64,000 bases of DNA from positions 16,728 through 80,727 of the forward strand of contig JAGBEV010000057.1 in NCBI GenBank assembly GCA_017936785.1, written 5' to 3'. The DNA is from Lachnospiraceae bacterium. GTDB lineage: Bacteria; Bacillota; Clostridia; Lachnospirales; Lachnospiraceae. Made by a program: the position numbers and the translations under genes. The notes under the pieces are model-generated. The model saw only the letters and a program-made list of their open reading frames with translations, ran no database searches and was not told where the DNA came from. Shown piece by piece: positions 3,056 to 57,689 of this stretch (position 1 is its first letter; every line of letters begins with the position of its first letter).

Positions 3056-3112
3056 TCTGCTGACAGGCAAAAATGAGAGTCAGAAAAAGCAGATCGGGGA
3101 CAGGTAAGAACA

Positions 3113-7305: not shown

Positions 7306-8250
7306 ATGTATACTTATTCATTGCAGCAATGGCTGCTGTTCTTTTTTACTTATTGTTTTCTGGGCTGGTGCTGGGAGTCCGCTTATGTGTCCGTTAAACA
7401 GAAGCACTGGGTCAACAGGGGATTTTTAAACGGACCCTTTCTGCCCATTTACGGCTCCGGCGCACTGGCAGTTCTGGTAGCAACCCTTCCCGTTCGGGAA
7501 TATCCGGCATTGGTCTATGTGTTCGGATTGATCGGGGCGACTCTTTTGGAACTGGTAACAGGTATCTGTATGGAGCGGTTGTTTCATGTGCGGTACTGGG
7601 ATTACAGCAACCAGAAATTTAATTTTAAGGGGCATATTTGTTTGAGCTCATCTATTGCATGGGGATTTTTTTCTCTGGCGATGATCTATGGATTTCATAA
7701 ACCAATCGAAAGCCTGGTGACGGGGCTGCCATATTGGTTAGAAAATACAGCCGCTTTTATTCTGACTGCCGTAATTGCAGGAGACTTTGCAGTCAGCTTC
7801 AAAACAGCTATGGAACTGCGGGATATTCTGGATGGAATGGAACGTGTGAAAGAAGAGATGAGAAGGATGCAGAGAAGGGCGGAGATCATCGAAGCCTTCC
7901 TTGCAGACAGTGCAGAGAAGAAGAGCGAGGAACTGCAGGAAAAGAAGGAAGAATTGCTGGAACGCAGGGACGAGTTTAAGGAGGAATTGCAGGAATTCAA
8001 GGACGAATTCAAGGCAGGTGTACAGGGACGCAAAGAAGATGTTGTGGATGAATTGCGCCAGATCCGTGAAAAACAGCAGATGTATGTTGAAAGAATGAAG
8101 AACGGCATCAGGAGAAATGTATCTGTAGAGCATATGTTAAAGAGAAATCCCACAGCGGTTTCCGGTAAATATGCTGCAGTTTTCAGGGAATATAAGGAAC
8201 AATTCATAAACAATGTAAAAGAAGAAATAGAAGAGAGATTGAAGCGATGA
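7306..8250 (+). CDS. CmpB-type putative ABC-transporter membrane protein with coiled-coil tail
   Basis: Integral membrane protein, 314 aa, resembling the CmpB/'putative ABC transporter type IV' family (motifs FTYCFLGWCWE, NRGFLNGPFLPIYG, and RYWDYSNQ). About five membrane segments fill residues 1-185. The C-terminal third is a highly charged coiled coil of EEL/EFK heptad-like repeats, longer than in many relatives, probably cytoplasmic. The transported substrate is unknown and no ATPase lies nearby. The next gene overlaps its end by 4 bases (ATGA), implying translational coupling. Confidence 0.75.
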   Translation: MYTYSLQQWLLFFFTYCFLGWCWESAYVSVKQKHWVNRGFLNGPFLPIYGSGALAVLVATLPVREYPALVYVFGLIGATLLELVTGICMERLFHVRYWDYSNQKFNFKGHICLSSSIAWGFFSLAMIYGFHKPIESLVTGLPYWLENTAAFILTAVIAGDFAVSFKTAMELRDILDGMERVKEEMRRMQRRAEIIEAFLADSAEKKSEELQEKKEELLERRDEFKEELQEFKDEFKAGVQGRKEDVVDELRQIREKQQMYVERMKNGIRRNVSVEHMLKRNPTAVSGKYAAVFREYKEQFINNVKEEIEERLKR

Positions 8251-47149: not shown

Positions 47150-47917
47150 ATGACATTAGGCAATAAACTATCAAAGCTGCGAAAACAAAATAATTATACT
47201 CAGGAACAGCTCTCGGATATACTGGGAGTTTCCCGACAGGCGATCAGTAAATGGGAATCAGACGTATCTTATCCGGAAACGGAAAAAATAATCCAGTTAA
47301 GTAAATTGTATGACTGTTCGTTAGATTACCTGTTAAAAGACGAGATAACAGATGAAAATTCCTATGATAAAGGTGTTGTCCTTCGTGTAAGAGAACTATA
47401 TTATGAAAAGACCAGTAAAAAGAAGATAAACGGAGTGCCCCTTTGGCAGATCAATATCGGCTTAGGCAGGACGGCCAAAGGAATCATTGCAATAGGTATA
47501 AAATCCAAAGGAATTATTTCTGTGGGAGTATTATCTATGGGGATTTTCTCTTTGGGTGTATGTTCATTGGGCATGGTATCTTTAGGGATTGCAGCATTAG
47601 GAATATTAGCCGCCGGTAATATAGCTGTAGGAATAATGGCAGCAGGAGCTATATCTTTAGGCATTATAGCCTTAGGTGCAATAGCAGTTGGAGAATTTTC
47701 AGCAGGTGCCATGGCGATCGGAAATTATATGGCGGTGGGAGACTATGCAAGGGCTGCCATTGCTGTGGGACAATCGGAAGCCTATGGAATCATTTATCAA
47801 AAGGTTGGAGAATTGACCCCGGCTGATTATAATAATATATGCGATTTGATTCATAAGGAAGTGCCGGCTTACTTTTCATGGGCAGGAGAATTGATGAAGG
47901 TCTTTCTGAAATATTAG
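47150..47917 (+). CDS. XRE regulator fused to a glycine pentapeptide solenoid
   Basis: 255 aa. Residues 1-65 are an XRE/Cro helix-turn-helix (LRKQNNYTQEQLSDILGVSR, ISKWESD). Residues 111-190 are 16 consecutive five-residue units with Gly in position 1, Ser or Ala in position 4 and a small aliphatic in position 5, without a single break; this should form a regular beta-solenoid or other glycine-lined stack. A short C-terminal domain follows (PADYNNICDLIHKE). Related fusions occur in other Clostridia, role unknown. It may bind DNA and a membrane or partner. Ribosome site AAAGGAG. Confidence 0.85.
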   Translation: MTLGNKLSKLRKQNNYTQEQLSDILGVSRQAISKWESDVSYPETEKIIQLSKLYDCSLDYLLKDEITDENSYDKGVVLRVRELYYEKTSKKKINGVPLWQINIGLGRTAKGIIAIGIKSKGIISVGVLSMGIFSLGVCSLGMVSLGIAALGILAAGNIAVGIMAAGAISLGIIALGAIAVGEFSAGAMAIGNYMAVGDYARAAIAVGQSEAYGIIYQKVGELTPADYNNICDLIHKEVPAYFSWAGELMKVFLKY

Positions 47918-47984
47918 AATTTTGGAATTTATGAATCTTGGCATGCTGCATTTGCGGGAGATGAACGGAAAGGAGCGATCTAAA

Positions 47985-48236
47985 TTGAAGAACACGAATG
48001 AACTGCTTGAAAATTTAGATAAACTGCATACAACGGAATTGGGAGTGATAAGGATTAAGAAAAATCTCTCCCTGGAAACGGATATAGCAGTTGACTGGTG
48101 CAGAGAAAAAATAAAATCCGCCAATGCGGTCATCTCTCGGAAGGGAAAAAACTGGTATGTCAGTGTAGATGGCTGTGTGATAACTGTAAATGCCTATAGT
48201 TATACGATCATAACAGCACATAAGGATAAACAGTAG
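47985..48236 (+). CDS. DUF3781-family protein
   Basis: 83-aa protein matching the DUF3781 pattern (LLENLDKLHTTELGVIRIKKNL, then VDWCREKI; core: LHTTELG). TTG start at 47985 chosen because AAGGAG lies 9 bases upstream; longer frames from ATG 47961 or 47922 are possible. Function of the family is unknown. It follows the XRE-solenoid gene by 67 bases and may be co-transcribed. Confidence 0.75.
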   Translation: MKNTNELLENLDKLHTTELGVIRIKKNLSLETDIAVDWCREKIKSANAVISRKGKNWYVSVDGCVITVNAYSYTIITAHKDKQ

Positions 48237-48372
48237 ATAATGATATGAATTTATTTTAAATGAAAAATATCAAAATGCGGAAATAGAATTTACCCAGTGA
48301 AAACATTGCCTTGGCAAAGAAAAGACTGGGAAAATGTTACGATAGTTTTTGGAATAGACATGGAGCTGACGG

Positions 48373-48876
48373 ATGGGGAAGATATCATATAGACTTGCAA
48401 ATTTCAATGATCTGAAAGAAATTTGCAAATTAGTTAATCATGCAATAGAAGAAATGATAAAACAAAATATTTTTCAATGGGATGAGTTATATCCTACTAT
48501 GGATGACTTTCGGGAGGATATAGATAAAGAACAGCTTTATGTGGGATTATTGGATGACCATATAGCTGTCATATATGTATTAAATCAGGATTATGATGAC
48601 GAATATGAAAACGGGGATTGGAAATATAAAAATGAACCATTTTATATTATACATAGACTATGTGTGAATCCTGTTTTCCAAAATAAGGGGATTGCCCGAA
48701 GTACATTGCAGCATATTGAAGAAGAGCTGATAGATTTGGACATTCATACCATCAGGCTGGATGTATATTCCCAAAATCCCTTTGCATTAAAATTATATGA
48801 TAGTTTGAATTATACCAAAGCAGGTTATGCTGATTGGCGAAAAGGAAGATTTTATTTAATGGAGAAGCATTTTTAG
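48373..48876 (+). CDS. GNAT-family N-acetyltransferase
   Basis: GNAT acetyltransferase, 167 aa; acetyl-CoA loop motif in NPVFQNKGIARSTLQHIEEE, catalytic-side beta bulge LCVNP, and a late RLDVYSQNPFALKLYDSLNY. Substrate unknown. Upstream a 12-bp palindrome TTGCC-TT-GGCAA sits at 48307-48318. Confidence 0.85.
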   Translation: MGKISYRLANFNDLKEICKLVNHAIEEMIKQNIFQWDELYPTMDDFREDIDKEQLYVGLLDDHIAVIYVLNQDYDDEYENGDWKYKNEPFYIIHRLCVNPVFQNKGIARSTLQHIEEELIDLDIHTIRLDVYSQNPFALKLYDSLNYTKAGYADWRKGRFYLMEKHF

Positions 48877-48949
48877 CTGTGAATCAGGGATAGCGGTGAA
48901 AGTTTATTAGTGGGTTATCATAAGATCCTATTTTAAAAGGCGGAGTTTT

Positions 48950-49417
48950 ATGGACAAGGAGATAATAAAAAGAGAGAAATTCAGATTTAAATCAAAAGAA
49001 CTTTTCTATAGAAAGCATGGTAAAAAGGAAGAAATGACTGCAAAGAATAATCCCGAGAGCATCTGTATTTATATAGACAGAAGTCGAAATCTGACAGTTG
49101 TACCGTTCTACTATTATGAAGACACTCCCATGGGCGTGGATATTGGAGATTATAAGCTGATCGATCATCCTTATAGCGCAGAGGAAATGGGAAACGTAAT
49201 ATATTCCTGCTATAAAGAAACATGGCAGAAGCCTCATGTTACAAATGAGCAAAGGGCTGAATCCATTCCCTCTTTTAAAAAGATAACAGGTAAGGGCTTT
49301 TCCTATTGGATAAGGCATTATGAATGTATTGAAATCCGTTTTAAAGAACAACTGAACATTCATTTTATGCACAAGGAAGTATCCGGAGACGGCAGGGGAT
49401 ATAGGAAATGCAGTTGA
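48950..49417 (+). CDS. Hypothetical protein, 155 aa
   Basis: Soluble basic protein with several aromatic strands (LTVVPFYYYEDTPMG, FSYWIRHYECIEIRF). GGCGGAG ribosome site. No family recognised; single-domain small protein of the type that accumulates in this accessory region, possibly an immunity protein. Confidence 0.65.
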   Translation: MDKEIIKREKFRFKSKELFYRKHGKKEEMTAKNNPESICIYIDRSRNLTVVPFYYYEDTPMGVDIGDYKLIDHPYSAEEMGNVIYSCYKETWQKPHVTNEQRAESIPSFKKITGKGFSYWIRHYECIEIRFKEQLNIHFMHKEVSGDGRGYRKCS

Positions 49418-49509
49418 TGCGGTTTGTTTCAAGAAGATGGGTGCTCATTTGACAGAAGAGCAGTCCTGAATTTCAATTTAAATAAACTTTTGTAAGGGGA
49501 TTTCATAAT

Positions 49510-50259
49510 ATGAAGACAAAAATGAAGAGTATTGGCGGAAGTCTGTTGATCACACTTTCTTTTGTGGTATTTGTAGGAATCATATCATCTGTTGCAATGA
49601 TGATAATGAAAAATCCTATGGATCATATTTCATTGATCAGTGGAGCAGCGCAGCTGCTGTATCTGGCGCCTGTCTTGATCATATTCAAGATTAAGAAAAT
49701 TACTTTTACAGAGAGATGTTACATAAAAACTGTTCCGTTGAAAAAATATCTTTTTCCCGTTATAGCGGCATTTGGATTTTCTTCATTTTCCAGTATTATA
49801 CAGGAGTCAGTACCTATTCCCCAGAGCCTTCTTGGAAATGCGACAGAAGATCTTGGAAACAGTGTTGCAGCATATATTGTGGCAATTTTTATTATTGCAC
49901 CGATTATAGAAGAAATAGTATTTCGGGGGCTAATCATGACCAGGCTCCGTAAGACCTTTTCGGCTGGCTGGGCAATTTTTTTCAGTGCACTATTATTCGG
50001 ATTTATTCATTTGATGACCGGAAGTGTTGTAACAGCAATACATGCTTTTCTGGGAGGATTGATCTTTGCATTGACTTATGAGAAGACCGGCTCTTTGATT
50101 CCGGCAGTAATAGCACATTTTTCGGCAAACGTAGGTGGCCTGGTGCCGGGGGTAGTTCGTAATTGTGATGTTATAGTACAATATGGTATAGCGGCAGTTT
50201 TTGCAGTGATATCTGCTCTGGCATGTATTGTTTTAGCAAAATCAAAAATATGTGTTTGA
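49510..50259 (+). CDS. CPBP-family intramembrane metalloprotease (Abi-like)
   Basis: Intramembrane protease of the CPBP/Abi family, 249 aa, about seven helices. Catalytic motifs are all present: EEIVFRG, GFIHLMTG, and HFSANVGG. Family members act in bacteriocin self-immunity, peptide maturation or membrane-protein cleavage; no peptide gene is seen nearby. AAGGGG site upstream. Confidence 0.88.
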   Translation: MKTKMKSIGGSLLITLSFVVFVGIISSVAMMIMKNPMDHISLISGAAQLLYLAPVLIIFKIKKITFTERCYIKTVPLKKYLFPVIAAFGFSSFSSIIQESVPIPQSLLGNATEDLGNSVAAYIVAIFIIAPIIEEIVFRGLIMTRLRKTFSAGWAIFFSALLFGFIHLMTGSVVTAIHAFLGGLIFALTYEKTGSLIPAVIAHFSANVGGLVPGVVRNCDVIVQYGIAAVFAVISALACIVLAKSKICV

Positions 50260-50285
50260 TTGAAAATGAAGGAGGAAAAATAAAA

Positions 50286-50915
50286 ATGAATAATCCTTGG
50301 AAAGAGATCGAATTATCAGATTATGAAAATCATATGAAGCTGGATTCTGTTAAGCAGCTTCAAGCAATGAATTCCATGATGAAAGAACAGTTTGACCGGT
50401 ATCCCATAAAATCGGTTATGATATTGGGAGTTGCAGGAGGAAACGGTTTAGAACATATTGATACGGAAAAGTTTCGGAAAGTATATGGAGTGGATATCAA
50501 TAGCAGATATTTGAAAGAATGTGAAGCCAGATATCCTGATTTAGCAGATGTGCTGGAGTGTCTTTGTATAGATTTGATGGATGAGAGTATTGCGCTTCCC
50601 TATGCAGACATGGTAGTAGCAAATCTGTTGATTGAATATATTGGATACCAATGTTTTCAAAACGCGATTAATAGGATCAGACCTGCATACGTATCCTGCA
50701 TAATTCAAATTAATACGGATGATAGCTGGGTGTCGGATTCACCTTATCTTTCAGTCTTTGACGATCTTGATCGAGTGCATCATCAGATGGAGGAGAAAGA
50801 ATTGGCAGATGCCATGAAGTGTATCGGATATTCCCTGACAGAGCAAACGGAGCAGTCTCTTCCTAATGGAAAGAAACTGGTACGATTGGATTTTTGTTTT
50901 GTGGATCAATATTAA
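50286..50915 (+). CDS. Class I SAM-dependent methyltransferase
   Basis: Methyltransferase, 209 aa. SAM-binding region MILGVAGGNGLEHI and acidic VDINSRYL. Start at 50286 set by GGAGGAAAAA; frame is open further upstream into the protease gene. Substrate unknown. The next gene begins 23 bases downstream. Confidence 0.82.
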   Translation: MNNPWKEIELSDYENHMKLDSVKQLQAMNSMMKEQFDRYPIKSVMILGVAGGNGLEHIDTEKFRKVYGVDINSRYLKECEARYPDLADVLECLCIDLMDESIALPYADMVVANLLIEYIGYQCFQNAINRIRPAYVSCIIQINTDDSWVSDSPYLSVFDDLDRVHHQMEEKELADAMKCIGYSLTEQTEQSLPNGKKLVRLDFCFVDQY

Positions 50916-50938
50916 AGTGTGTTATGGGAGGAAACGTA

Positions 50939-51346
50939 ATGAATGCTGCAAAAGATTTTTATTATGTAACGGATGACAAACATCAAATAAAGAGTGCGGA
51001 TGTTGAAAGATTGTTAAAAAGGACATATTGGGCAAGTCAGAGAACAAAGGAAGTCATTCAAAAGTCTATTGACAATTCTATTTGCTATGGAGTATTTGAT
51101 TCTGAAAGCAATCTACTGATCGGATTTGCCAGAGTCGTAACGGATTATGCAACTATATTTTATCTGGCAGATGTAATTGTTGATGAAGCTTATCAGGGAA
51201 AAGGCATTGGGAAATTTTTAGTTGATACAGTTGTAAATGACGATAAAATTAAGGGGCTTCGTGGTATTCTTTTGACAAAAGACGCGCATAAATTATATGA
51301 AAGATTTGGATTTAACCATGAAATGGAGAGGTGTATGGTTAAATAG
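50939..51346 (+). CDS. GNAT-family N-acetyltransferase
   Basis: GNAT enzyme, 135 aa. Acetyl-CoA motif YQGKGIGKFLVD, and typical C-terminal LTKDAHKLYERFGF. Start at 50939 is behind GGGAGGAAAC. Substrate unknown. With the preceding methyltransferase it forms a small unit of modifying enzymes. Confidence 0.86.
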   Translation: MNAAKDFYYVTDDKHQIKSADVERLLKRTYWASQRTKEVIQKSIDNSICYGVFDSESNLLIGFARVVTDYATIFYLADVIVDEAYQGKGIGKFLVDTVVNDDKIKGLRGILLTKDAHKLYERFGFNHEMERCMVK

Positions 51347-51521
51347 TAGTTGTACTAAGAGGATGCAAAGATTTAATTTCCTGAATCAAGAAGGATTGCT
51401 TTTTATGGGTAAATATGTTAAAGTATAATTGTTCTATTTAGAAATATTCTAAAAGGAAATAAAAATAAACTAGGGATAAAAGTATATTTGCCTTGGAGTG
51501 GAATTATTCAGGAGGGATTTG

Positions 51522-52151
51522 ATGGAATTTTATGATGTGGTAAATGCAAGAAGAACAATCAGAGATTTTAAGGATGAGCCGATTGATATGGAGGCAATAA
51601 AAAGGATTATTGCTGCCGGGATGAAAGCCCCCACCAATGATCATATGAGGGATTGGCATTTTGTTGTTGTGAATGACAAGGCTGTGGTACGGAAACTGAT
51701 CAATAAAATACCCAAAAAGGTATCGGATAAGCGGCTGGAATTTATTATAAAATCATGGAAGCTGGAGGATGAATGCCAGCAGAAATCTTATTATGATGCC
51801 ATTCCAAAGCAATATCAGATGCTGTTAAATGCAGGCTGTGTAATCATTCCGGTTTTTAAGCAGGAATGGGATTTGCTACAGCCTAAAGATTTGTCTGCAC
51901 TTAACAGGTTCGCATCAATCTGGTGCTGCATCGAGAATATTTTTCTGGCGGCAACGGCTGAGAACTATGGATACACGCTGAGAATACCTCTTGGAAATGA
52001 ACAGGAATATGTGAAAAGCGTTTTGAATTTTCCGGATGAATATATCATGCCTTGTTATATTGGGATAGGGAAAATAGCGGAAGATGCGGTGTATCCTGAG
52101 CAAAAAGCTTATGTTCTTGATGATAGAATTCATATGAACGGGTGGAAATAA
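51522..52151 (+). CDS. Nitroreductase-family protein
   Basis: FMN nitroreductase-like protein, 209 aa: N-terminus VVNARRTIRDFKDEPID and MKAPTNDHMRDWHFVVV are the flavin-binding signature. Start at 51522 follows AGGAGGG by 6 bases. A MarR gene follows 31 bases downstream, then a PPOX flavoprotein gene: a flavin redox unit under a MarR regulator. Confidence 0.85.
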   Translation: MEFYDVVNARRTIRDFKDEPIDMEAIKRIIAAGMKAPTNDHMRDWHFVVVNDKAVVRKLINKIPKKVSDKRLEFIIKSWKLEDECQQKSYYDAIPKQYQMLLNAGCVIIPVFKQEWDLLQPKDLSALNRFASIWCCIENIFLAATAENYGYTLRIPLGNEQEYVKSVLNFPDEYIMPCYIGIGKIAEDAVYPEQKAYVLDDRIHMNGWK

Positions 52152-52182
52152 TCTGATATTTTAAAGCATTGGAGGAATTTGC

Positions 52183-52623
52183 TTGGAAACAAAAGGCGGA
52201 TTTTATATTACGCAGATCAAACAACTTCAGGATAGGATTTTTGAAAGGCTGCTGGTGGAAAACGGCATAGAGATCAGCGGCGGTCAGGGAAGGATTTTGT
52301 TTATTTTGTGGAAGAAGGATAATCTTACCATAAGTGAGATCAGTAAAGAAACGTCTCTGGCAAAAAACACGGTTTCCATTGTAGTTGACGGAATGGTGCA
52401 TAAAGGCATTCTGGAAAGAAACATTAACCCTGAGAACCGCCGTCAGACCATTATTTCCCTTACAGAGTATGCAAAATCCATACAGGAAAAATATGAAGCA
52501 GTTTCCCAGCAGATGAACCAATTATTTTATCAGGGATTTTCTGAGGATGAGCAAAAGCTGTTTGAGCAGTATCTTGCAAAAATATTAGATACTTTGATAC
52601 AAGAGGAAAATAGGAGAAAATAA
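52183..52623 (+). CDS. MarR-family transcriptional regulator
   Basis: MarR regulator, 146 aa; winged helix with recognition segment LAKNTVSIVVDGMVHKGILERN and a wing with Asn/Arg (PENRRQTIISLT). TTG start with GGAGG upstream. It sits between two flavoprotein genes and probably controls them; ligand unknown. Confidence 0.88.
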   Translation: METKGGFYITQIKQLQDRIFERLLVENGIEISGGQGRILFILWKKDNLTISEISKETSLAKNTVSIVVDGMVHKGILERNINPENRRQTIISLTEYAKSIQEKYEAVSQQMNQLFYQGFSEDEQKLFEQYLAKILDTLIQEENRRK

Positions 52624-52679
52624 AGCCGGGAAATTTTATTGATTGAATAGATGTTGAAGCAAGAAGGGGAGGATGAAAC

Positions 52680-53114
52680 ATGAAAACCAAAGAACAGATA
52701 TATGAATTTATTCAAAAACAGAAGGTGGCATTTATTGCATCGGTGGATGAAGATGGATATCCCAATATGAAAGCTATGTTCGTGCCGCGCAAGATAGAGG
52801 GAAACAGTTTTTATTTTACTACCAATACGTCATCCATGAGGGCAAAACAATTTATGACAAATCCCAAGGCAAGTGTTTACTTTTACAATAAGGGGCGTTT
52901 CCGTTATGAAGGAATCATGTTTACAGGGAACATGGAAGTTTTGCAGGATGCAGAAATCAAGAAGGAAATCTGGCGGACGGGGGACTCCATGTATTACAGG
53001 GAAGGAGTAACAGATCCGGATTATTGTGTGTTGAAATTCACTGCGGTAAAGGGAAGGCATTATTGTGATCTGAAAACGGAGAGTTTCAACATGGAAGATT
53101 TAGAACCGCAATAA
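52680..53114 (+). CDS. Pyridoxamine 5'-phosphate oxidase-like flavoprotein
   Basis: PPOX split-barrel protein, 144 aa: VAFIASVDEDGYPNMKAM and YFTTNTSSMRAKQFMTNPKAS are typical of FMN-binding general stress/PPOX proteins. AGGGGAGG site. Last of the nitroreductase-MarR-PPOX set. Confidence 0.87.
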   Translation: MKTKEQIYEFIQKQKVAFIASVDEDGYPNMKAMFVPRKIEGNSFYFTTNTSSMRAKQFMTNPKASVYFYNKGRFRYEGIMFTGNMEVLQDAEIKKEIWRTGDSMYYREGVTDPDYCVLKFTAVKGRHYCDLKTESFNMEDLEPQ

Positions 53115-53184
53115 AACGTGTGCCGGAACTAATATAAAAGAAGCAAGGAAAAGATATAGATCATGAAGGGATGTATCAATAATT

Positions 53185-53559
53185 ATGAATGAAGATAGCG
53201 GCATCATCGGGATAAAAGAATTATTGCAGGGACTTCCCAGGGAAATGCAATTTTGGCATTGTTTTGGACAAGTTCATGAGTTTAAATATTATAAGATATA
53301 TGATTATGAAGAATGGCATGAACGATATGATGCAGAGATTGTCTTGAGCGATCGGGATGAAAAGGTTAAGATCTGGCTGAAGCTGAAAAATGTTATCGGA
53401 GATATTAAATTGCATATGACACAATCCATAAGCGGACTGAATATAAGAAATCTGCGTAAAGAGTGTGGGTTTGAAAGTGGCGTTGGTTTTCATCTGTATG
53501 ATTTTGAGAATGAGGATATTTCTGTTTATTGTGAGGAAATCGAGGCGAAAATACTATGA
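53185..53559 (+). CDS. Hypothetical protein, 124 aa
   Basis: Soluble acidic protein with the feel of an immunity or small enzyme domain (EFKYYKIYDYEEWHERYDAE, LDV-type strands, final DFENEDISVYCEE). No family recognised. No clear strong ribosome site; ATG 53185 chosen by frame length. Confidence 0.6.
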   Translation: MNEDSGIIGIKELLQGLPREMQFWHCFGQVHEFKYYKIYDYEEWHERYDAEIVLSDRDEKVKIWLKLKNVIGDIKLHMTQSISGLNIRNLRKECGFESGVGFHLYDFENEDISVYCEEIEAKIL

Positions 53560-53598
53560 GCTTTGAAATAGAGATAAAAAAGCTGTGGTGGATTTTTT

Positions 53599-54678
53599 AT
53601 GATACCAAATGATGATTTGACCAGTGTGGATATTTGCGGCTGTCCCAATGGAATAGACTGGAGCGTAATTCATGAGGGTAAACATGTCAGGATAGTAACT
53701 GAAAGCGGTAATGAAACGTTGGTAGATTTGGCAGAGTATTCCATGACTGTATACAAGTTCGCAGACTATATTGAAGAGTATTATAATAATTGCGCACCGA
53801 AAATTTTTCCCAAAGATGAATTTGACAGAAATGGTTATATAGCTTTTTGGAACGAATGGCATAGAAGAAAGGTTAATCTGAAATATCCCATATTAATGGT
53901 TCACGGCATGGGCTTTCGGGACCGGAAATACCTGAATTACTGGGGACGGATTCCCGGCAGGCTGGAAGAACTGGGGTGCAGGATTTATTATGGCTGTCAG
54001 GACAGCAACGGTTCTATTGAAGCAAACGGAGAAATACTTGCAGGAAGAATACGGGAAATCATTGATGAGACAGGCGCAGAGAAGTTAAATGTCATTGCCC
54101 ACTCCAAAGGCGGACTGGATATCCGTTATGCGATTTCCACGCTGGGAGCAGGGAAATGGGTGGCTTCAGTTACTACCATGAATACACCTCACAACGGCTC
54201 AGAGACGGTGGATGCGCTGTTGAAGCTGCCTGATTTTTTAATCCGTTTTGGCTGTAAATGCACAAATCTCTGGATGCGGATTCTGGGGGATCACAAGCCG
54301 GATACCTACTCAGCAATCCGGTCATTTACTACCGTGAGTGCATCAAAATTTAATGAAGAAAATCCTGATATGGATGGGATCTATTACCAGAGCTATGGAT
54401 TTGCCATGAAAAATGCTTTTAGCGATATTTTTTTGGCATGGACCTATCCGGTGGTATACTTTTTTGAAGGAGAAAATGATGGACTGCTGGCGCCGAGAGC
54501 TGTTAAGTGGACCAATTTTCAAGGCGTTTTCCGGGGCAATTCCAACCGGGGAATTTCTCACTGTGACCAGGTGGACTTGAGACACCGCAGGTTTACGAAG
54601 AAACAGGGAGAAGGAGTTTCGGATATTGTTGATGTGTATGTGGATGCAGTAAGGCGGTTGGAAAAAATGGGATTTTAA
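53599..54678 (+). CDS. Lipase-like alpha/beta hydrolase
   Basis: Intracellular-looking alpha/beta hydrolase, 359 aa, lipase class. Nucleophile Ser 169 in AHSKGGLD, oxyanion segment MVHGMGFRDR, an acidic residue in the EGENDGLL segment and His in ISHCDQVDLRH complete the triad. No signal peptide at the start, so the substrate is probably cytoplasmic or membrane-facing. Weak GGTGG site. It precedes the nitrilase cassette but a separate promoter at 54710 starts that unit. Confidence 0.82.
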   Translation: MIPNDDLTSVDICGCPNGIDWSVIHEGKHVRIVTESGNETLVDLAEYSMTVYKFADYIEEYYNNCAPKIFPKDEFDRNGYIAFWNEWHRRKVNLKYPILMVHGMGFRDRKYLNYWGRIPGRLEELGCRIYYGCQDSNGSIEANGEILAGRIREIIDETGAEKLNVIAHSKGGLDIRYAISTLGAGKWVASVTTMNTPHNGSETVDALLKLPDFLIRFGCKCTNLWMRILGDHKPDTYSAIRSFTTVSASKFNEENPDMDGIYYQSYGFAMKNAFSDIFLAWTYPVVYFFEGENDGLLAPRAVKWTNFQGVFRGNSNRGISHCDQVDLRHRRFTKKQGEGVSDIVDVYVDAVRRLEKMGF

Positions 54679-54685
54679 GAAAAAC

Positions 54686-54707
54686 TACTGAACAATTACT
54701 GAACAAT
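54686..54707 (+). repeat. 11-bp perfect tandem repeat upstream of the nitrilase cassette
   Basis: TACTGAACAAT occurs twice in a row (54686-54696, 54697-54707), immediately before the -35 box at 54710. It could be a binding site for a dimeric regulator, perhaps the HTH protein of the cassette. Confidence 0.6.
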
Positions 54708-54709
54708 AA

Positions 54710-54738
54710 TTGATTTTGTTCTAAAATTATGATATAGT
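54710..54738 (+). promoter_or_regulatory. Sigma-A promoter of the nitrilase cassette
   Basis: TTGATT (54710-54715), 17 bases, TATAGT (54733-54738), 8 bases before the ribosome site AGGAGGTGA. It excludes the ATG at 54737 as start. Confidence 0.7.
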
Positions 54739-54763
54739 GAAGTTCCAACAGGAGGTGAGAGTG

Positions 54764-56152
54764 TTGGATGAACTATATAATTTAATTGCTGAAATGATCG
54801 TTTATCTGTTGGAAAAAACCGATGCAGATTTTTATAAAAAATATAATAGCCGTACCCAGACAGAGAGAGACCGGGAAAGAAATATTGTTTGTAAAAATGT
54901 CCCGGGGCTTTTTGAGAAGGATTCGGAACAATGTTGTGATCTGGGGAACAATATAGGAACCAAAACGGAGTTTCTGGAAAGTTTAAAACATTTATTTCTA
55001 TATTGTAGGAAAGCTGAAGAAGACAAGTGTATATTACAATTGCTGGAATTATTAGATGGTTCATTGGAATTTCAAATGCTTAGGGAATTAGAGAGTTTGG
55101 AAGATGAAGCATCAGAAGAATGTCTGAATCCTAATTGGAATAAATTGAAACTTGGAATTGTGCCCCGATGTACCTGTTACTGGGAGAGAGGTCACAGAGG
55201 AAGTCAGCATTATGATAGATTAGATAATTTTTTGAAAAATATTTTGATCATAAACTATCAGGTACTGGGGGAAATGCAGGTTTTTCACCATTTTCTCCCG
55301 GTTAATACATTTTATTCCGCAGAAAAGAAAGGAAGCCTGTCTGTAGCGGTTTCTCCCTTTAAAATGCAGAGAGATTTTGAACAGGAGACTTATGAAAGAG
55401 AAGGGACCTGTTACTTTTCGGTACAATATAGTGGGAATGCGGAATGTGATAATCAAAATATAAAAGACATCATATCTGAAGCAGCGAAAGAGCAGGTTGA
55501 TATACTGATATTTCCTGAAATGCTTGGAAATACTATGATGGTTGACGAAATTGCGGAATATCTGCAGGAGCCTTTCTGGCTAAGTCAAAATAAGCCACCA
55601 GCAATCATATCACTGCCTAGCGTATGGGATGAACATAAAAATACAGTGAATCTTCTAAACCACACCGGAACGATCATTTGCGGTCAAAATAAGCAGGAAG
55701 CATATTTGGAACCCATTGATCCGGGAGGAAGTGCATATGAAGATATCAAAAAAGATTATAGAATCCATTTAATTCATGGAATCGGAATAGGTCGAATGGC
55801 TGTAATGATCTGCAAGGATTTCCTTACAAAAGATTATTTGGATATAATGTTAGAGAATTTAAAGGTTAAATTGATTTTGATTCCGTCTTATTCTACCGGT
55901 TATCATGATTTTGAAACCATGGCAGGAAATTTATTGATGTCGGACTGCTGTGCAGTCTGGGCAAATGCCTGTGGGGCAATAAAGGAGCGAAATGGGGAAG
56001 AAAGAAAAGTAGGATTTGTCTTAAGGAGTGGAAGGAATACTGGGAAAGAGAGAGAATATGTTTGTATTGAGGATTTTTGTTCTCAAAAAGAATATATGGA
56101 AACTCGGCTGAAAGTCTGGAAACTGTATTACAAAACCTTGCTAGGCAGATAG
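54764..56152 (+). CDS. Nitrilase-superfamily enzyme with N-terminal helical domain
   Basis: Carbon-nitrogen hydrolase domain with an unusual N-terminal extension, about 463 aa. The N-terminal 200 residues are helical and Cys/His-dotted (PRCTCYWERGHRGSQHYD) without a known domain. The nitrilase core holds the full Glu-Lys-Cys triad: Glu 252 in FPEMLG, Lys 310 in QNKQEAYLEP, Cys 350 in VMICKDF, with correct spacing. Substrate (amide or nitrile) unknown. TTG 54764 lies 8 bases after AGGAGG; GTG 54761 is an alternative. First gene of a three-gene unit with two downstream genes. Confidence 0.8.
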   Translation: MDELYNLIAEMIVYLLEKTDADFYKKYNSRTQTERDRERNIVCKNVPGLFEKDSEQCCDLGNNIGTKTEFLESLKHLFLYCRKAEEDKCILQLLELLDGSLEFQMLRELESLEDEASEECLNPNWNKLKLGIVPRCTCYWERGHRGSQHYDRLDNFLKNILIINYQVLGEMQVFHHFLPVNTFYSAEKKGSLSVAVSPFKMQRDFEQETYEREGTCYFSVQYSGNAECDNQNIKDIISEAAKEQVDILIFPEMLGNTMMVDEIAEYLQEPFWLSQNKPPAIISLPSVWDEHKNTVNLLNHTGTIICGQNKQEAYLEPIDPGGSAYEDIKKDYRIHLIHGIGIGRMAVMICKDFLTKDYLDIMLENLKVKLILIPSYSTGYHDFETMAGNLLMSDCCAVWANACGAIKERNGEERKVGFVLRSGRNTGKEREYVCIEDFCSQKEYMETRLKVWKLYYKTLLGR

Positions 56153-56167
56153 AAAGGAGGAAGCTAG

Positions 56168-56935
56168 ATGGGTGATTTCTTAGACAGCTATTCTCTTATA
56201 AGAGATTATGTGAAAAGCGGTACAGAGAATAAAGAATTAAGTGAAAACCTGAGAGAATTGCATAAGAGCTATTTGCAGATTCTTATGCAGGGAATGAAGG
56301 CACAAAGCGAAGAACTGATAAGGGCGGAAACGGAAAAACTTCAATATATAAAAAATGTTTATGAAAAATATTTAAAAACAGAAGATGATGCAAAAAATAT
56401 TGCGTATCTGACTGGGATTGTCATAGGTGAAAGTAAGGTAGGGGCAGCTTGGCTGAGAGAACAGACAAATGAAGAGGCATTTGTACAAAACATGGGAATT
56501 TTGCTTTCAAGGGCACATATCAGGGATATTGTAACAAGTATTTATGATACGCCCGGGATTCAGCATAAAACGCTTGCACTACAGACAGGGATTAAAGCCA
56601 ATTACTTAAATCAATTAGCTTCTTTATTGGAAAAGATTAATTGTATCAGACGTTATGGAACAGGCAAATGTACCTATTATGAGTTGACTTTAAGAGGAAA
56701 GGAGTATGTGCAGAAAAATATAGAACCTAAGAAGGATACAGAGAGAAAGCGTGACTTTCTGAAAGAGATGAGTGAATTTAAAGAGATTCAGAAGGAAAAT
56801 TCTTATAAAATTATAAAAAATAGGAAAAATTATTTTGAAAATAAAAAAATAGAAAAGAAAGAAAATATTTATGATAGAAGCAATGTCATAATATTGGAGA
56901 CTTATTATAAAAGGACAAAGTTGCTTGAAATGTAG
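56168..56935 (+). CDS. Winged-helix protein with coiled coil
   Basis: 255 aa. N-terminal coiled coil (about 25-80), then a helical block, a winged-helix DNA-binding-like domain (about 118-185: ALQTGIKANYLNQLASLLEK, YELTLRGKEYV), and a strongly basic Lys-rich C-terminal tail that could bind nucleic acid. AAGGAGG site. It follows the nitrilase gene by 15 bases. It could be a regulator of the cassette or a sensor. Confidence 0.75.
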   Translation: MGDFLDSYSLIRDYVKSGTENKELSENLRELHKSYLQILMQGMKAQSEELIRAETEKLQYIKNVYEKYLKTEDDAKNIAYLTGIVIGESKVGAAWLREQTNEEAFVQNMGILLSRAHIRDIVTSIYDTPGIQHKTLALQTGIKANYLNQLASLLEKINCIRRYGTGKCTYYELTLRGKEYVQKNIEPKKDTERKRDFLKEMSEFKEIQKENSYKIIKNRKNYFENKKIEKKENIYDRSNVIILETYYKRTKLLEM

Positions 56936-56944
56936 GTGGAAAAA

Positions 56945-57547
56945 ATGGAAAAAATAAATAATCTTGTAAAAGAGATCATGAAAAATGATAAGAGCTGGGA
57001 AAATTATAAAGAAATCAAAGAAATTAATGAACCAAAGACCCTTGAACTGTTGAATGATTTGATTTCAGAGGTTCGCAAGATGGTAAAAAATGATGAAGAA
57101 GAATCGCTTGAAATGCTGTCCCAATACGTTGAGAATGATCAACTATGCAAAGATATCATTGCTTTTTCACGGTTTACGTTGATGCACTATAAAAATTTTG
57201 CCATTGTAAGGCAATTGGAAGAAAGCAATAGGGAATTAGCAGCTGTATTATTTCAAAATATCATGGATAAATTTGTGCTTAGACTGGATTTTGATTTTCA
57301 GGAAACATATGAGATCTATAATGCTAAAAGTGAAGAAGAATTTTATGATTTTCTAGAAAGCTATGATACGCTGGTGAGTTATTATGTACAGAGACATTAT
57401 AGCAGAAAGGCAATTGTTAAGGATATCATTGAGGAAACAGAAATTAGTGATGAGGATGCAGAAGTATTTGCAGATTTAATAGGAAGAAATTATAGGGATT
57501 TGCAGCTGAATCTGATCATAGACAGTTTGCAAAAAAATAAGAACTAA
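56945..57547 (+). CDS. Helical protein, third gene of the nitrilase cassette
   Basis: About 200 aa, acidic and almost wholly alpha-helical by composition, no membrane helix and no recognised family. Start chosen at ATG 56945 after AGGTGG; GTG at 56936 is an alternative directly after the stop of the winged-helix gene. Cotranscribed with it. Two terminators in tandem follow, which close the unit. Confidence 0.7.
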   Translation: MEKINNLVKEIMKNDKSWENYKEIKEINEPKTLELLNDLISEVRKMVKNDEEESLEMLSQYVENDQLCKDIIAFSRFTLMHYKNFAIVRQLEESNRELAAVLFQNIMDKFVLRLDFDFQETYEIYNAKSEEEFYDFLESYDTLVSYYVQRHYSRKAIVKDIIEETEISDEDAEVFADLIGRNYRDLQLNLIIDSLQKNKN

Positions 57548-57555
57548 ATCATATG

Positions 57556-57590
57556 CAAAAAGGCATGGCTGTATGGTCATGCCTTTTTTA
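57556..57590 (+). terminator. First terminator after the nitrilase cassette
   Basis: AAAGGCATG with CATGCCTTT around a GCTGTATGGT loop; T run. Confidence 0.85.
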
Positions 57591-57593
57591 TAG

Positions 57594-57631
57594 GAGCTGC
57601 CGCACAAATCTGTTTCTGCGGCAGCTTTTTA
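57594..57631 (+). terminator. Second, back-to-back terminator
   Basis: AGCTGCCGCA (57595-57604) pairs with TGCGGCAGCT (57617-57626); T run follows. The doubled stop insulates the cassette from the sigma factor gene. Confidence 0.85.
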
Positions 57632-57660
57632 TAGCAGCAAGGATAAAATTTTAATAAATT

Positions 57661-57689
57661 TGTAGTAAAATACACTTTTCCTGCGTCTA
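57661..57689 (+). promoter_or_regulatory. Candidate ECF-type promoter of the sigma gene
   Basis: TGTAGT (57661-57666), 17 bases, CGTCTA (57684-57689). The CGTC -10 core and TGnA- type -35 resemble ECF sigma promoters, as expected for autoregulation of the sigma gene that follows. Confidence 0.5.

Follow-up and report, generated by a model that had tools for sequence, protein, structure and literature searches.

A putatively mobile nitrilase/winged-helix cassette with a variable third gene in Lachnospiraceae, and its possible place among conflict systems

Do three tightly packed genes in a Lachnospiraceae genome, encoding a nitrilase-type protein (gene A), a winged-helix protein (gene B) and a third protein (gene C), form a unit of their own, and to what kind of system might such a unit belong? 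The genes lie in a 64,000-nucleotide stretch, here called the window, taken from contig JAGBEV010000057.1 (positions 16,728 to 80,727 of the forward strand; assembly GCA_017936785.1), which is contig C38 of a host genome of 3.41 Mb in 66 contigs with a contamination estimate of 8.77%. A reading made from the letters alone (the sequence-only reading) had proposed an undescribed accessory system, with a standalone conflict or signaling role as a conjecture. Judged from comparative sequence evidence, these genes make up one copy of a mobile cassette that is complete in itself and consists of A, B and a third gene; whether the cassette is a conflict- or abortive-type, defence-like module with the nitrilase as its effector is, in our estimate, an evenly balanced matter. 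The features of the locus, in window coordinates, are as follows.

54675..57683, no strand: stretch missing in a same-genus relative (empty site; blastn comparison with genome G002)
54687..54708, plus strand: 11-bp direct repeat, two adjacent copies ACTGAACAATT/ACTGAACAATA, read in the sequence; candidate operator
54710..54738, plus strand: predicted promoter, with a -35 TTGATT (54710), a 17-nt spacer and an extended -10 TG-n-TATAGT (ending at 54738)
54764..56152, plus strand: gene A, nitrilase-type protein, 462 amino acids (E252, K310, C350; E326 as a possible second Glu)
56168..56935, plus strand: gene B, winged-helix protein by its family profile, 255 amino acids, with a Lys-rich tail
56936..57547, plus strand: gene C, 203 amino acids, of a family (C1) recognized in 12 cassette loci
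57557..57588, plus strand: terminator hairpin 1 (RNA fold of 57545-57592, -19.2 kcal/mol, z -4.9)
57594..57632, plus strand: terminator hairpin 2 (RNA fold of 57588-57636, -21.6 kcal/mol, z -4.8)

The three open reading frames (ORFs) span 54764-57547 on the same strand, with gaps of 15 bp between A and B and 0 bp between B and C. Their GC contents (0.37, 0.33 and 0.31 for A, B and C, against 0.42-0.44 in four neighboring genes) agree with the earlier label of an AT-rich block. Gene A starts at the TTG at 54764, behind an AGGAGG, the earliest in-frame start listed being a GTG at 54737; both the TTG start and the Shine-Dalgarno sequence are kept in a same-genus copy (L031).

To what extent are these genes conserved together? 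Window protein A, as the sole query, found relatives in its own genome and 13 others among 397 of the family; genome and viral scans with a single window protein gave nothing useful. A contig-collection scan with a sub-alignment of A yielded 93 relatives, the best 80 of which were kept; these were picked by motifs from one nitrilase alignment, so the ratio of cassette loci to loci with a Nudix partner among them is meaningless. Gene A followed by B and then by a third gene recurs in 18 distinct loci, all from gut bacteria, in Lachnospiraceae or clostridial bins (the window, L031, L034, L038-L045, L079, L105, L109, L120, L125, L127 and L165). L116 duplicates L034, and L075, L093, L117 and L122 equal L032, L033, L035 and L037 as proteins; neither the trees nor the nitrilase alignments include the broken proteins of L031 and L034/L116. 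A profile of B, run against 299 family genomes, gave eight loci above 50 bits, seven of which adjoin A, its weaker matches mostly covering the winged helix only; by this route we found a cassette in genome G233 that is absent from the single-protein A matches. When 10 other cassette loci were compared with the window sequences alone (E <= 1e-3), eight gave a match to B and five a match to C.

The gene trees agree with this picture. Across 16 loci, the distances of A and B correlate at 0.86, a value reached in none of 2000 permutations, and within 10 C1 loci the correlations are 0.92 (A-B), 0.90 (A-C) and 0.88 (B-C), with at most one of 2000 permutations as high. One could still suppose that the genes are unlinked neighbors that merely resemble an operon, as the third gene family differs between loci; against this, A and B adjoin in 18 loci, the trees are concordant and the promoter is conserved, so that we give the idea almost no credence, and the synteny refutes it for A-B and for A-B-C1. 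The three-gene synteny that the sequence-only reading had proposed to check, and whose absence would have counted against it, holds for A and B, which stand beside each other in 18 loci, and gives way at the third gene, which belongs to another family in 6 of the 18. Its description of an undescribed accessory unit fared well, since the genes are co-conserved and our literature searches turned up no description of such a three-gene cassette.

The third gene comes from two apparently unrelated families, a split drawn from leave-one-out and split profiles. C1 is present in 12 loci (the window, L031, L034, L038, L039, L041, L079, L105, L109, L120, L125 and L127), and C2 takes its place in six (L040, L042-L045 and L165); a profile of four C2 proteins recognizes the two held-out ones at E 1.3e-46 and 5.6e-16. 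For the window C protein itself, neither Pfam nor NCBIfam gives a match that exceeds its cut-off, and the best match to a PDB profile has an E of 0.16. Two C1 sequences occur without A or B: a relative in L046 (8381-10307), where it immediately follows the gene of a DUF815 ATPase (PF05673, E 3e-95), and a fragment in an 85-codon frame of genome G308. The L046 relative, used as a query, matched 1 of 60 family genomes, namely through the window's own cassette.

Gene B forms one family, in that leave-one-out profiles recognize all 17 rows (weakest E 2.9e-8), L165 scoring 7.3e-19. The family profile resembles SmtB-, HlyU- and MarR-type winged helices, chiefly at profile positions 110-200, and HTH_24 and MarR models match 5 and 3 of 11 B relatives, respectively (E <= 1), which upholds the winged-helix identity first proposed. 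A SLATT_4 match (E 0.0018) was rejected, as it concerns one of the 11 members only.

What might control the cassette? The tandem 11-bp repeat reported ahead of the -35 was confirmed by a pattern search with 0 mismatches and is conserved in the 12 C1 loci; a repeat-family search at 9 bp reported no family at 54687-54708, though both copies are readable. The pattern TGAAYAA-N4-TGAAYAA (at most one mismatch, within 200 bp upstream) occurs in 13 of 19 cassette regions, that is, in 12 of 18 distinct ones, against a mean of 0.43 of 19 and a maximum of 2 in shuffled cassette regions, and it occurs in none of 76 upstream regions (71 distinct) of sister nitrilases, the related nitrilases outside cassettes. 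It tracks the third gene, being present in 12 of 12 C1 loci and in 0 of 6 C2 loci. The repeat is probably the operator of the cassette, bound by B and perhaps by B with C1; B is the likely binder because it is the only recognized DNA-binding-type protein of the cassette.

In the host genome, the repeat is the sole exact match to its pattern; loose matches (at most two mismatches) number 17, compared with 2 for the reversed pattern. A wide regulon was considered and rejected, since 13 of the 16 other loose matches (one or two mismatches) fall inside predicted ORFs and three do not. One of those 13, L193, sits in a frame of 84 codons ahead of a solute-binding-type gene, and the genome may thus contain a few similar sites. 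In the C2 locus L042, an inverted repeat, AACTATTGTT-N8-AACAATAGTT, adjoins a TTGACA within the 200 bp upstream of position 3071 (read by eye) and shares its half-site with the direct repeat found in C1 loci.

The unit was also said to have its own promoter. By itself, the match does not exceed what chance would give (23 promoter-pattern matches in the region, compared with 16.8 +/- 3.7 expected), and the layout is conserved across the C1 loci: in all 12, the repeat is followed by a TTG-type -35, and a TG-n-TAnnnT -10 is found in 10 of the 12 repeat-bearing loci, L039 and L041 being the exceptions (both read by eye; the automated -10 differs in several). We regard the promoter as credible because of this conserved layout and not because of its match score. 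At the other end, both of the stacked terminators proposed earlier fold much better than shuffled sequences (z -4.9 and -4.8); a terminator scan of the region listed neither hairpin. In the same-genus loci L181 and L182, a different hairpin stands at the place of terminator 2 (read by eye), and from this comparison we rejected the idea that terminator 2 is simply ancestral. No known RNA was found by Rfam at gathering score in window 50-62 kb.

Is A an active enzyme, and of what kind? The Glu252-Lys310-Cys350 triad is intact, as the sequence-only reading had it, with numbering that is correct for the TTG start, and it is invariant in the aligned nitrilases (14 of 14 and 78 of 78) as well as in the 16 intact cassette nitrilases, 15 of which also have E326. 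The Pfam model CN_hydrolase (PF00795) reaches 11.9 bits with window A (E 0.14), which is below its curated cut-off of 23.2, and it matches 8 of 14 relatives of A at E <= 1 (best E 0.0032). Further, the Glu, Lys and Cys regions of the A family align weakly with pantetheinases by profile (E 0.0057). The earlier reading had named as its own undoing a known metabolic amidase, for example an NAD synthetase glutaminase; no Pfam or NCBIfam amidase or NAD synthetase family scores above cut-off, neither database finds an NAD synthetase domain in A, and the protein stops at residue 462, so we rejected this identity. By contrast, the roughly 200-residue N-terminus described as unusual is shared by the relatives, 74 of 80 loci aligning from query residue 1-4. 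A PDC-S26 match of the L040 protein was rejected, as it is confined to residues 15-95.

Comparison with genomes of the same genus indicates how the cassette is inherited. At the orthologous site of G002 (contig C47; L181), 133 bp (7678-7810) stand in place of 3,009 bp in the window, with the lipase-like gene matching by blastn on one side and an extracytoplasmic function (ECF) sigma gene on the other. In G006, a second same-genus relative, the cassette is a broken copy at a different site, in a 19-kb stretch where none of the other window proteins has a match (1e-15). Moreover, in all 17 cases measured, the GC content of the cassette is below that of the surrounding locus. On this comparative evidence, the cassette is a mobile unit that comes and goes at unrelated places. 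In both broken cassettes, A is the damaged gene, by internal deletion: (i) in L031, approximately residues 201-303 (window numbering) are deleted, with loss of E252, and (ii) in L034, approximately 27 residues present in L079 are missing, with a change of frame; B and C are open in both. This pattern of loss, in two loci, together with the C1 sequences that occur without A or B, fits a view of A as the costly part.

A winged-helix regulator, a hydrolase and an operator of its own make up a common catabolic layout, and the cassette might be a mobile amidase operon for catabolism or detoxification, in which B would be a substrate-responsive regulator, A would hydrolyze an environmental amide or nitrile and the third gene would be accessory. 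That layout, the intact triad and the many non-defence neighbors speak for this explanation. No recurring transporter or pathway gene accompanies the cassette, however: among the 16 largest neighbor groups, only B, C1, C2 and a murI-type gene occur in at least three loci. Further, A is highly divergent within one bacterial family (a quick tree, with long branches), and we consider a catabolic operon doubtful.

A second alternative arises from the sister nitrilases. A Nudix-type gene adjoins 51 of the 74 distinct non-cassette nitrilases, 45 times downstream (28 at 0-22 bp and 17 overlapping as called) and six times upstream; the one Nudix partner checked matches PF00293 (E 4e-18). Such nitrilase-Nudix operons occur in rumen Treponema, Fibrobacter, Ruminococcus and Lachnospiraceae (within L048-L127; for example, L053:7998-9942). 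They share with the cassette the nitrilase family and its N-terminal region, at 27-34% identity to window A, and differ from it in having the Nudix partner, no adjoining B or C and no direct repeat. In addition, 26 of the 74 sisters have a STAS, PP2C-type, HATPase-like or 199-residue gene no more than five genes away, at least two kinds of these partner-switch-type genes being present in 18 of the 26 (examples are L050:1840-2574, L053:10032-11603 and L065:9899-12749), compared with 0 of 15 cassette rows; for STAS and PP2C one protein each was checked against solved structures, and the HATPase-like label was given by reading, its search having matched nothing. In a quick tree, the 74 sister rows form one group with a support of 100, and the cassette rows fall outside on long branches, for which a long-branch warning applies.

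These sisters hint at the chemistry, in that the substrates could be nucleotide- or NAD-like. They would suit a role in stress or metabolite repair, in which the nitrilase family would act under signal control as an amidase on nucleotide- or NAD-like metabolites, and the cassette would be a variant with its own regulators; the 51 Nudix-coupled loci and the partner-switch genes beside the sisters favor it. None of the 15 cassette rows has such partner-switch genes, though, or was classed as having a Nudix-type partner, and the cassette is gained or lost, as the empty site in G002 illustrates. We therefore regard metabolite repair as an unlikely role for the cassette, somewhat more so than catabolism.

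What, then, speaks for a conflict- or abortive-type module? The best PADLOC matches among 14 relatives of A are conflict-associated models, CARF-nitrilase (1.8e-8) and RTasNitrilase (2.3e-7), the latter matching 9 and the former 7 of the 14 at E <= 1. The link to defence nitrilases is weak, and window A itself reaches only 0.005 against the PADLOC nitrilases, so that this part of the earlier proposal is borne out in the choice of models and not in strength. The CARF-nitrilase match of window A pairs residues 235-392 with positions 223-366 of the 457-position model, and thus covers the nitrilase part only; with both PADLOC systems, the nitrilase half is what matches, and no CARF or reverse transcriptase (RT) domain was detected in the proteins read singly. 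Domain searches found no RT domain in A, B, C or the two preceding genes, which agrees with the absence of an RT stated earlier, and the sole RVT_1 match of the host genome is on contig C56, whereas the window is on C38.

Two known systems invite comparison. AbiE-type systems place a winged-helix antitoxin gene in a compact toxin-antitoxin or abortive operon with promoter repeats; the cassette differs from them in having another enzyme, direct instead of inverted repeats, the effector gene first and a third gene. DRT1 (UG1 RT-nitrilase) shows that anti-phage systems can use a nitrilase domain as their effector (PMC13275509). DRT1 and the cassette have in common a nitrilase with intact catalytic residues as the likely effector; unlike DRT1, the cassette is without an RT and has B, C and a putative operator instead.

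In a few cases, the neighborhoods contain defence genes. We scanned the neighbors at 17 cassette loci, L165 being excluded (121 proteins, 115 of them scanned and six short ones left out), and among 25 of 31 families listed, specific defence systems stood within a few genes at three of them. In L039 (4419-9117), insertion sequence (IS)-type transposase genes (read by eye) are followed by PDC-S15 and the two genes of a retron II-A (1.7e-81 and 1.9e-107); L120 has Olokun, with OloB matching at 2.9e-65 over its length and OloA at 1.4e-13 over part; and L042 has a CARF-HEPN protein (1.5e-19). Other matches were generic, namely SMC (L045) and subtilase (L127). Taken from sequence neighborhoods, these defence genes near cassettes are suggestive, short of proof.

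Several observations weigh against this picture, in its various parts. (i) As to the unit, correlations are weaker in the six C2 loci, where A-C fails to reach significance (a value as high arose in 310 of 2000 permutations), and the agreement of gene trees is also expected from shared host history; moreover, C1 and C2 do not resemble each other (the C1 profile scores C2 proteins at E 13-53), so that "three conserved genes" strictly means two plus a variable third. (ii) As to the operator, the excess of loose genome matches could reflect a host factor with similar sites, and L039 and L041 have the repeat yet group, weakly, with the repeat-less L040 in the B tree; the repeat is distributed as C1 is, at odds with the B tree, which suggests that C1 may take part and weakens binding by B alone. 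(iii) As to mobility and cost, the related loci L034, L079, L105 and L109 have ddl-murI-type genes upstream, with an rpoB-type gene downstream in three of the four, where the locus reaches that far (read by eye), so stable inheritance also occurs, and the loss pattern comes from two loci. (iv) As to defence, many cassette loci lie amid genes that read as housekeeping; the sisters, with their Nudix pairing (51 of 74), look like ordinary regulated functions; a control of 14 sister loci (104 neighboring proteins, 103 of them scanned and one very long one left out) gave helicase, SMC/ABC-type and one PDC-S33 matches among 25 of 35 families listed, a comparison that is no statistical test; and searches of viral contigs, phages and plasmids found no relative. 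Of the earlier interpretation, a conserved accessory unit holds up well, and a conflict or defence role stays conjectural, with specific systems near 3 of 17 loci and no phage, viral or plasmid relative.

If the cassette is nonetheless a conflict-type module, the reading that we favor over its rivals, it could work as follows. B, perhaps together with C1, would bind the direct repeat and control the operon; A would serve, under this control, as an amidase-type effector with a small molecule as its substrate; and the third protein, C1 or C2 and thus presumably exchangeable, would restrain A or sense the trigger. The nitrilase would do the damage, much like the nitrilase effector domain of DRT1, and without an RT. 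A more specific version, which we put forward tentatively, is a stand-alone nitrilase immune system, in which B and the exchangeable C1 or C2 would hold A dormant and sense infection, and released A would deplete or convert an essential amide-bearing metabolite. Were this true, the cassette would be an RT-free nitrilase defence module with two subtypes, defined by third gene and operator. A simple three-gene cassette with a DRT1-type enzyme and no RT would offer a directly testable case, for which the conserved repeat provides a handle on cassette control, and the C1/C2 swap a handle on the role of the third gene.

The surroundings of the cassette vary as well. In L182 (G006, contig C31), compared with window 47917-57648, the match jumps from about 47.9 to 57.6 kb, indicating a variable block wider than the cassette. 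Upstream of the cassette, at window 53599-54678, lies a lipase-like/DUF676 gene with relatives in nine of nine genus genomes; its only close relative is in G002 (80%), and the other genus relatives and a second copy in its own genome, at 42-47%, look like paralogues.

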